Shown here piece after piece: positions 14,610 through 16,748 of a stretch of 64,000 nt of DNA. The position numbers and the translations under genes were made by a program. A model generated the notes under the pieces. The model searched no databases. It had not been told where the DNA came from and saw only the letters and a program-made list of their open reading frames with translations. Each line of letters starts with the position of its first letter. The first letter of the stretch is position 1. The DNA is from Actinomycetales bacterium (GTDB lineage Bacteria > Actinomycetota > Actinomycetes > Actinomycetales > Cellulomonadaceae), in contig JAHLLI010000011.1 of NCBI GenBank assembly GCA_020444245.1, positions 1 through 64,000 of the forward strand, read 5' to 3'.

Positions 14610-16748
14610 GTGGATCAACATCGGGCCGTCGGCGGCCGATCTTCAGGTGTGTCGTCCGGTCCTACCCAGAACTACGACGACCCGAACCTCGACCGCTGGC
14701 GCCCCCGCCCGGTTCTCGCCGCTGTCGTGCGCCTCGGCGTCGTCGCGCTCCCGGCTGCCCTGGCGGTCGCGATGGGCTGGGCCGCGGCGACCTGGCTCCC
14801 CGCCGACCGGCTCGGGATGAACCCGTGGGTGTGGCTCGCAGGCGAGATCACCGTGGCCACCCTCCTGGTCCTCGCCCTGGGGCGACTGACCCGCCGCCTC
14901 CTGCCCCTGTCGGCCATGCTGGCCATGGCCCTGGTGTTCCCGGACCAGGCGCCGTCCCGCCTGGCCGTCGCGCTGCGGACCCACTCCCCGGCGGCGCTGC
15001 GGCGCCAGATCGCCGACGTCCAGGCTCGACGCACCGGGGCCGACGCTGAGCCGACCGCCGCGCTGCTGGGTCTGGTCGCGGCGCTGTCCCTGCACGACCA
15101 CAACACCCGCGGCCACTCGGAGCGGGTCCAGGCCTACACCTCCCTGATCGCCGAGGAGATGGGGCTCCCCGAGCCGGCTGCCGCCCGGCTGCGCTGGGCC
15201 GCGCTGCTGCACGACATCGGCAAGCTGCGGATCCCCAGCGAGATCCTCGCCAAGACGGGACAGCCGAGCGCGGCCGAGTGGGAGGCCCTGGCGAACCACC
15301 CGACCCTCGGGCTCGAGCTCGCCGCGCCGCTGAGCGACTTCCTGGGCGAGTGGGCCGCGGGCATCAGCCAGCACCACGAGCAGTGGAACGGCGCCGGGTA
15401 CCCGAGGGGCCTCGCCGGGCAGGAGATCCACCTCGGCGCCCGCATCATCGCCGTCGCGGACACCTACGACGTGATCACGTCCACCCGCTCGTACAAGGAG
15501 GCGATGCCGGCCTCGCAGGCCCGCGCGGAGCTGGCGCGGTGTGCCGGGACGCAGTTCGACCCCGTGGTGGTCCGCGGGTTCCTCGCGGTCGGGCTGGGCA
15601 GGCTCCGGCTCGCCACGGGCCCGCTGTCCGCGCTCACGAGCCTGCCCGGCCTGCGCTCCGTGCCGCTGCCCGACCTGGCCACCACGGCGGGCGGGCTCGG
15701 CACCGCCCTGACGGCCGGCGCGGCGGCGACGACCGCCACGCTCGGCCTGCTGGTCGGTGGGCTCGCGGCCCCAGCGGTCGCCGGCCCGGCCGCCGGGAGC
15801 GGTGACCCGGCACCCGCCGCCGCCGCTCGTCCCTGGTCGGGCATCGCGTCGGACGGCGGCGCGAGCACGCACCAGCCCGCGGACGGCGACGGCACGACCG
15901 CCACGAGTCCCGCGGACGATCCCACCGAGCCGACCAGCACCAGCACCAGCACCAGCACCAGCACCAGCACCAGCACCACGCCGGCCACCGGGGCCGCAGC
16001 TCCGGCGCCCGCCGCGCCCAGCGCGAGCGCGGCACCGACCACGAGCACAGCGGACTGCACCACCGTCACGGCGGACGAGCGGACCGCGTGCGACCTGCCA
16101 GGTGCCACCCTGGTGGGCGACTGGTCGGGCCTGTCCCTGGCCGGCCTGGACCTGCACGCCGCGACCCTGCGCGGGGTGGACCTGTCGGGCTCGAACCTCA
16201 ACGCCGCCGACCTCACCTCGGCCACGCTGCTGGACGTCGACCTGACCGGCGCACGGCTGCAGGGCGGCTCGCTGTCCGGCGCCACGCTCACCGACGTCGA
16301 CCTCACGTCCGCCGACCTCACCAACGCCGACCTGTCCGGTGCCAGCCTGACCGGCACGGTGCTCGGCGGCGCGGTGCTCACCAACGCCCAGCTGCTGGGC
16401 ACGATCGCCCACGACGTGGTGGTGCTGCGCGACGCCAAGCTCGGCGAGGCCGACCTGGGCGGGGCGGTGCTCCCGGGCGCCGACCTGCGCGGGGCCAGCC
16501 TCGTCGGGGCGGAGCTGGTCGGCGCGGACCTGACCGGCGCGCTCCTGGACGGTGCGGCCCTCTCCCGCGCCGACGCCACCGGCGCGCTGCTGGTGGGGAC
16601 CACGCTCGCGGGCACCGACCTGTCACGGGCGACGCTGACGCGCGCCAATCTCTGGCGTGCGACCGGCACACCGTCCTCGACCACCCGCGCGACGTTCTCG
16701 GCCACCGTGTGCCCCTCGGGCGACACGAGCAGCACCACCTGCTGGTGA
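14610..16748 (+). CDS. HD-GYP phosphodiesterase fused to extracytoplasmic pentapeptide repeats
   Basis: 712 residues from the GTG at 14610 (a second in-frame GTG at 14649 is equally possible). Two or three N-terminal helices (about 34-110) lead to an intact HD-GYP domain (about 150-335): HDIGK at 201-205, HHEQW at 255-259, GAGYPRG at 261-267. HD-GYP domains hydrolyse c-di-GMP. A further helix (about 366-392) would send the chain outside, where a Ser-Thr repeat linker (442-456) is followed by about 190 residues of pentapeptide repeats (A(D/N)LxG type, about 498-690) and a Cys-containing C-terminus. The combination of an internal second-messenger enzyme with an external beta-helix is unusual. 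Neighbouring c-di-GMP gene: the GGDEF-EAL protein at 17.5-19.7 kb. Confidence 0.88.
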   Translation: MDQHRAVGGRSSGVSSGPTQNYDDPNLDRWRPRPVLAAVVRLGVVALPAALAVAMGWAAATWLPADRLGMNPWVWLAGEITVATLLVLALGRLTRRLLPLSAMLAMALVFPDQAPSRLAVALRTHSPAALRRQIADVQARRTGADAEPTAALLGLVAALSLHDHNTRGHSERVQAYTSLIAEEMGLPEPAAARLRWAALLHDIGKLRIPSEILAKTGQPSAAEWEALANHPTLGLELAAPLSDFLGEWAAGISQHHEQWNGAGYPRGLAGQEIHLGARIIAVADTYDVITSTRSYKEAMPASQARAELARCAGTQFDPVVVRGFLAVGLGRLRLATGPLSALTSLPGLRSVPLPDLATTAGGLGTALTAGAAATTATLGLLVGGLAAPAVAGPAAGSGDPAPAAAARPWSGIASDGGASTHQPADGDGTTATSPADDPTEPTSTSTSTSTSTSTSTTPATGAAAPAPAAPSASAAPTTSTADCTTVTADERTACDLPGATLVGDWSGLSLAGLDLHAATLRGVDLSGSNLNAADLTSATLLDVDLTGARLQGGSLSGATLTDVDLTSADLTNADLSGASLTGTVLGGAVLTNAQLLGTIAHDVVVLRDAKLGEADLGGAVLPGADLRGASLVGAELVGADLTGALLDGAALSRADATGALLVGTTLAGTDLSRATLTRANLWRATGTPSSTTRATFSATVCPSGDTSSTTCW
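15933..15978. repeat. Coding ACCAGC hexanucleotide repeat
   Basis: About seven consecutive copies of ACCAGC encode the Thr-Ser linker of the HD-GYP/pentapeptide protein. Slippage would change linker length in frame. Confidence 0.85.

Follow-up and report, generated by a model that had tools for sequence, protein, structure and literature searches.

We asked whether one protein encoded in the window, by which we mean the whole 64,000-nucleotide stretch analyzed, joins an HD-GYP phosphodiesterase to a pentapeptide-repeat domain placed outside the membrane, as the initial annotation had claimed, and what such a protein could do. The frame at 14610-16748 on the plus strand contains no internal stop. 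Its upstream GTG at 14610 would add 13 residues (a 712-aa reading); we placed the start at the GTG at 14649 because a relative from Actinotalea solisilvae (locus L007) can start MASGPTQNYDD where the window reads VSSGPTQNYDD. The protein thus probably begins MSSGPTQNYDD, and on the basis of this start and the open frame the whole gene is taken as 14649-16748 (plus strand, 699 aa). Residue numbers count from this codon, except for the Pfam span of the HD-GYP domain, which is given on the 712-aa reading. In the stretches coding for the membrane helices, HD-GYP domain, third helix and pentapeptide repeats, 93-97% of third codon positions are G or C; the linker has 91%. The open frame, this coding signal and a fusion kept in orthologues bear out the claim of a single protein and rule out a reading of the frame as two proteins, and a recent chance fusion was rejected because 13 of 17 complete members in the window's taxonomic family, L007 included, share the HD-GYP-pentapeptide order. 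A promoter and terminator scan returned 0 sites, and none of the 812 matching plasmid records covered 80% of the query, the measure used for the whole architecture on plasmids. The AF2 model, built from 19 sequences, has a mean pLDDT of 67.5.

The HD-GYP domain (HD_5) lies at 15081-15569 on the plus strand (residues 145-307); on the 712-aa reading, Pfam gave it a span of 158-320 with E 1.6e-36. The AF2 blocks over residues 141-320 have pLDDT of 75-95. The domain carries the dimetal ligands H156, H188, D189, H217, H242, H243, and D271, an active-site Lys (K192), and the GYP motif at 250-252. Related loci were collected with an E-value limit of 1e-30 and a required match length above 180 query residues, and repeats of one gene were merged (L013 and L142 are the same gene, counted once), which gave 82 distinct loci. 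All the dimetal ligands were invariant in 82/82 loci, the GYP Tyr was kept in 82/82, the GYP Pro in 81/82, and K192 in 80/82, an invariance measured on loci picked by likeness, since an E-value and length cut-off chose them; L019 and the cut second gene in L166, which are without the anchoring motif, were left out of the ligand counts. The best PDB sequence match was V-cGAP3 (5Z7C, E 6.2e-39), with PmGH (4MCW) and PA4781 (4R8Z) following among the best solved relatives, and the window protein has the same fold and dimetal ligand set as these three. Unlike the solved HD-GYPs, the window enzyme is fused to a predicted C-terminal membrane pass, a stalk, and an outer module. It also differs from PmGH by the loss of the third-metal Glu: in the alignment to 4mcw, the E185 position is Asn152, so the extra Glu of the trinuclear PmGH subclass is absent, as it is in 81 of the 82 loci, with Glu found in 1. 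The role of this Glu is described in the available part of PMC8177086, according to which dimetal HD-GYPs hydrolyze in one step and 3'3'-cGAMP is a substrate of some HD-GYPs. Because the Glu is absent, one-step hydrolysis by the window HD-GYP seems likelier, and because some HD-GYPs use 3'3'-cGAMP, the substrate may be c-di-GMP, 3'3'-cGAMP, or pGpG. From the ligand set, we infer that the enzyme probably degrades an internal signal such as c-di-GMP. The earlier description of an intact c-di-GMP phosphodiesterase therefore stands for the full dimetal ligand set, with the missing third-metal Glu as a caveat on c-di-GMP breakdown. This was the sole HD-GYP match of its own genome (4.41 Mb) by Pfam HD_5 at E 0.001, and the same genome had 36 GGDEF matches and 27 EAL matches, 26 of the latter above cut-off.

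Two strong N-terminal membrane helices, unmentioned in the initial annotation, precede the enzyme. Helix TM1 (14709-14795, plus strand; model helix 21-49) has a hydropathy of 2.35 and is an AF2 helix with a block pLDDT of 80-90; TM2 (14823-14894, plus strand; model helix 59-82), with a hydropathy of 1.79, is likewise an AF2 helix and is followed by a family motif, FPDxAPSR, in conserved alignment columns. The loop between TM1 and TM2 has fewer K/R than both of its flanks in 57 of 67 proteins, and for this reason the N-terminus and the enzyme were placed in the cytoplasm. Downstream of the enzyme, an Ala-rich hydrophobic segment (15708-15797, plus strand; approximately residues 354-383) was taken as TM3, with low model confidence. 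It is weak in the window, its best 19-residue hydropathy being 1.55 against a family median of 1.79; the value falls below 1.4 in 5 of 72 complete loci and to 0.79 in L169, all in a comparison without a control set. The positive-inside rule applied at TM3 favored neither side, with K/R before the segment more numerous in 27 proteins, equal in 21, and fewer in 24 (n = 72).

The putative TM3 is followed by a disordered stalk rich in Pro, Ala, Ser, and Thr (15798-16055, plus strand), with pLDDT below 50 over residues 326-467. Within it lies a perfect ACCAGC array (15933-15978, 7.7 copies) coding for (Thr-Ser)n. The proposed joint of a membrane helix and a Thr-Ser linker thus holds for the array, and for the helix it needs amending, as this is weak and two further helices stand at the N-terminus. 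The array is missing from the nearest orthologue, so its length could vary in frame between strains. A sugar-coated stalk, hinted at by 3 matches to the protein mannosyltransferase family PF02366 in the own genome, was discarded, as such matches also occur in 8 of 14 control genomes.

Beyond the stalk, a pentapeptide-repeat domain, predicted to form a beta-helix (16092-16658, plus strand), was identified by Pfam, AF2, and Foldseek matches to solved pentapeptide proteins. Pfam found Pentapeptide PF00805 in five stretches (E 6.4e-37), and with the repeat definition taken from the available text of PMC8145042, the longest run in the outer part was 16 fitting units of 19; in 500 shuffles the longest run averaged 2.6 units and never exceeded 6. 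Block pLDDT was 85-96 over residues 471-570 (89-96 over 481-570), 48-88 over 571-670, and below 40 beyond. Foldseek matched the folded parts to pentapeptide proteins (2j8k and HetL, 3du1), designed solenoids, and HD-GYP domains, and the AF2 prediction agrees with a quadrilateral beta-helix for the pentapeptide part. At its N-terminal end, the head has a Cys pair, C470 and C481 (16056-16091, plus strand), both columns of which are invariant in 14 aligned pentapeptide heads; L015 was left out of this alignment, and its repeats show no Cys by eye. A second pair, C688 and C698 (16710-16748, plus strand), sits in the C-terminal stretch CPSGDTSSTTCW and occurs in the window protein and its nearest orthologue, L120, and not in the other 12 aligned heads. 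Two more pentapeptide-repeat genes were seen in the own genome (G000:C27:5604-5789 and G000:C10:54905-55012).

Among pentapeptide proteins that are lumenal or secreted, Rfr32 and others have disulfides in their caps, as described in the text available from PMC8145042. In YjbI-type proteins, as far as the accessible portion of PMC12864828 describes them, Cys pairs flank an extracytoplasmic beta-helix on either side, a layout predicted for the window protein too. The same portion presents the Cys-flanked, secreted YjbI of Caulobacter as restraining envelope-stress pathways, and YjbI as a free secreted protein of the Gram-negative outer membrane with a charged tail and no enzyme fusion. The window protein has both Cys pairs (C470/C481 and C688/C698) and neither an own secretion signal nor a charged tail, its head following the enzyme and TM3 and its tail CPSGDTSSTTCW being nearly uncharged.

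We then compared the outer ends of the relatives. Full-length relatives among the best 80 loci of named genomes came mostly from metagenome assemblies, plus Actinotalea, with assembly titles including Acidimicrobiia, Acidimicrobiales, Ilumatobacter, Thermoleophilia, Actinomycetes, and one Acidobacteria; the closest named relative among these 80 was A. solisilvae (L007). Within the window's family, full-length orthologues (E <1e-100) were found at 17 places in 16 of 150 genomes, own included. At E 1e-60 or better, 22 of 396 genomes of the order matched, four of them from the window's family, and at the same threshold 17 genomes besides the own matched in a separate search of 396 genomes across the phylum. 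The architecture is inherited, judging from these orthologues.

The 3' end is complete in 72 of the 82 loci, every one of which went through the Pfam scan; the other ten, cut by contig or locus ends, were excluded from outer-end counts. The outer part has a median length of 253 residues (range 41-1000). It ends in a named module in 29 of the 72 loci: pentapeptide repeats in 15, Ig/cadherin-like domains in 10, PASTA in 2, FN3 in 1, and a lamin-tail domain in 1. The pentapeptide locus L015 additionally carries six FN3 and two Ig-like stretches, and the Ig/cadherin locus L009 also carries FG-GAP. In 43 of the 72 loci no module above the Pfam cut-off was found beyond the stalk, and four of these belong to the 17 complete loci of the own family, whose eighteenth member is truncated at a contig end. 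From this the head appears dispensable over time. A different family of the same order also has a pentapeptide head, in L182, and L122 carries two gene copies with starts approximately 7 kb apart, one headed by pentapeptide repeats and the other headless. By blastp of outer parts, a C-terminal module of approximately 120-180 residues without a Pfam name is common to L003, L014, L017, L137, L139, and L166 and looks like another exchangeable head; L014, L017, and L137 were entered as headless despite bearing it. In the headless loci L180, L181, and L198 of another family, a short tail after the stalk has two Cys with 7 to 15 residues between them. Among 17 headless members of the window's clade, a search for frameshifted heads found an out-of-frame repeat run (15 units) only in L199, the other 16 having no run longer than 6 in a flank of only 351-852 bases for most.

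Ig/cadherin, FN3, PASTA, lamin-tail, and FG-GAP are, unlike pentapeptide repeats, typically extracytoplasmic module types, and PASTA binds wall muropeptides. Because the relatives' replacement modules are of this type and the TM1/TM2 charge pattern puts the enzyme inside, we infer that the pentapeptide tail very probably lies outside the membrane, as had been claimed for it, with the outer Cys agreeing less cleanly. In counts that cover related rather than independent proteins, 33 loci have outer Cys, 25 of them an even number and 8 an odd one; for the cytoplasmic part, the number is even in 27 loci and odd in 41. Six of the eight odd outer counts belong to pentapeptide-headed members of the own family, parity among the 15 pentapeptide loci being 9 even and 6 odd, and the three Cys of L199, which was entered as headless with its head out of frame, are also among the odd counts. 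Were TM3 not to cross, the pentapeptide part would be cytoplasmic and could act on a partner as Qnr and MfpA act on gyrase. The weak TM3 and a weak NCBIfam similarity to both proteins fit this reading; we give it a very slight probability, in view of the extracytoplasmic type of the replacement modules and the fixed Cys pair of the heads. Membership among the gyrase-protecting Qnr/MfpA proteins itself was rejected, with scores far below the cut-offs (34.5 bits against 240 for the Qnr model NF033086 and 41.5 against 360 for the MfpA model).

Given an outside location, the head need not stay attached. If TM3 were an internal signal sequence cut on the outside, the stalk and head would be secreted, and Ala-x-Ala-like stretches were seen by eye after TM3 in several members, such as the L007 segment ending ALALAGPEAVAQ. 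However, all 72 complete loci still encode enzyme and outer part as one chain, with 41 or more residues in the outer part, and we regard release as very improbable.

The history of the heads bears on whether they do more than hold the enzyme in place. In a quick maximum-likelihood tree, 14 of the 15 pentapeptide members fall in a 34-row group with 100% SH-aLRT, in which loci from two further families of the order join the window's family. On this tree at least 7 changes are required for the pentapeptide label, with well-supported branches forcing 5 of these, and for the Ig label 9 are required, 4 of them forced. An early gain of the head followed by repeated loss, with L015 as a separate case, fits this distribution, and the tree leaves the direction unproven. 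Three close pairs, with L128 a partner in two of them, gave dN/dS values of 0.15-0.18 for the enzyme and helices, 0.37-0.49 for the stalk, and 0.18-0.23 for the head, which was taken to start at the first outer Cys and to reach the C-terminus and thus includes a low-complexity tail in L131/L132. In two more distant pairs, one being the window with L120, dN/dS was 0.66-0.69 for the head against 0.30-0.42 for the enzyme. From the close and distant pairs together, the head is under constraint over short times but diverges faster over long ones.

These data fit two readings of the outer part. In one, the stalk and head merely tether the phosphodiesterase to some site of the envelope, such as the poles, septum, or wall, which would allow local control but no sensing. 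A Pro/Ser/Thr/Ala-rich stalk as the usual outer part, its fast drift, and folded heads that come and go on the tree would all suit a passive anchor, but close pairs that keep the head conserve it as they do the enzyme, and Cys-capped heads are shared by two families of the order; we consider this reading possible, if doubtful. In the other, which we prefer only because the head is conserved where present in close pairs, the protein would be a wall-anchored HD-GYP phosphodiesterase whose stalk and head report the envelope state, a tentative proposal that we hold at slightly less than even likelihood. The enzyme would be anchored by three membrane passes, with its N-terminus and catalytic domain in the cytoplasm, and the C-terminus would cross the membrane and continue as a flexible stalk that spans the wall and bears a rigid, Cys-capped beta-helix as its head. 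This head, or the Ig/cadherin, FN3, PASTA, or other module in relatives, may bind or rest on a wall or surface polymer; strain on the stalk, or binding, could then be relayed by TM3 and by the conserved linker that follows the HD-GYP domain, and so alter enzyme activity, and in this way the envelope state would set the local cyclic-dinucleotide level.

Signaling may also run in the opposite direction, with the HD-GYP domain binding a cyclic dinucleotide and altering the outer part, as in the HD-GYP protein DvhD and in LapD. DvhD of Desulfovibrio vulgaris provides a precedent for a membrane HD-GYP receptor with an extracytoplasmic domain and has, unlike the window protein, a periplasmic dCache and a PAS domain; it shows no c-di-GMP hydrolysis and has been proposed to signal inside-out, as given in the part of PMC13090378 available. 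DvhD structures were among the PDB sequence and Foldseek matches, and no periplasmic dCache or LapD/MoxY domain was matched by Pfam in the window protein. Although DvhD is non-hydrolyzing, the ligand set here is invariant in 82/82 loci, as would be expected of a working enzyme, and no protease or adhesin gene is common to the flanks of the 18 loci compared; inside-out signaling is thus improbable in our judgment. Another actinobacterial membrane HD-GYP, HdgA of Streptomyces, has six membrane helices (6TM-HD-GYP) and is without an outer module, according to the available text of PMC6205966.

Both domains are known, and their arrangement and the exchangeable outer ends appear undescribed in the open-access literature searched. 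No paper there dealt with HD-GYP domains together with pentapeptide repeats or PASTA domains, in line with the earlier statement that no characterized protein of this order was known, and, among the papers listed under cadherin, actinobacteria, or Streptomyces topics, no HD-GYP family with such outer ends was found, as judged by titles and the openings of abstracts. To our knowledge, little is known of how Gram-positive cells feed the state of the wall or surface into c-di-GMP. In yeast, Wsc1 and Mid2 combine a Ser/Thr-rich wall-spanning stalk, which bears a Cys-rich head in Wsc1, with a cytoplasmic signaling part below, and their likeness to the window protein is an analogy of layout only, with no homology. 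The loci may, with some doubt on our side, represent an undescribed family of actinobacterial wall-integrity receptors, in which a conserved cytoplasmic phosphodiesterase, exchangeable heads that bind wall or surface, and a stretchable stalk would turn the wall's mechanical or chemical condition directly into cyclic-dinucleotide breakdown. Where different heads occur naturally on one enzyme in a single chain, swapping heads and reading the enzyme output becomes a ready experiment, and such a family would give extracytoplasmic pentapeptide domains a role in signaling.

The genes around the locus raise the further question of a partner. A racemase gene (16793-17485) begins 44 bases downstream of the HD-GYP gene and is followed by a GGDEF-EAL gene on the minus strand (17482-19839), which the initial annotation had regarded as a matching cyclase/phosphodiesterase. 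Near the nearest orthologue (L120 in G107, 70% identity), no racemase or GGDEF-EAL match was found in the 17 kb compared, and a DUF885 gene adjoins the HD-GYP gene there. In the same-genus genome G066 (L135), the GGDEF-EAL, DUF885, MCP, and DoxX-like genes are kept, no racemase lies in the stretch compared, and only approximately 50 residues of the HD-GYP gene are recognizable. A conserved operon with the racemase and GGDEF-EAL genes was therefore rejected. Across 18 loci, a GGDEF-EAL-like match lay in the stretch compared in 6, one of them (L124) partial at 39% identity; a density of one GGDEF in 122 kb would lead one to expect two or three, and two same-genus pairs account for four of the six loci. 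No flanking gene, as called by a purpose-made gene caller that missed the HD-GYP gene of L133, was common to all 18 loci, the commonest, in 7, being one that we take by its likeness to be an RNA-methyltransferase-like gene. As no GGDEF-EAL match lies within the 17 kb compared at L120, L135 keeps the GGDEF-EAL gene where little of the HD-GYP gene is recognizable, and no flanking gene is shared by the 18 loci, a fixed partnership of the 2 genes is not supported; the 6 of 18 loci speak partly for the partner idea, and a looser link may exist. In G066 (L113/L135), the approximately 50 residues still recognizable at the syntenic place are N-terminal. A chemoreceptor gene with a dCache_3 sensor domain by Pfam (21496-23391) also lies close to the c-di-GMP genes in the window.
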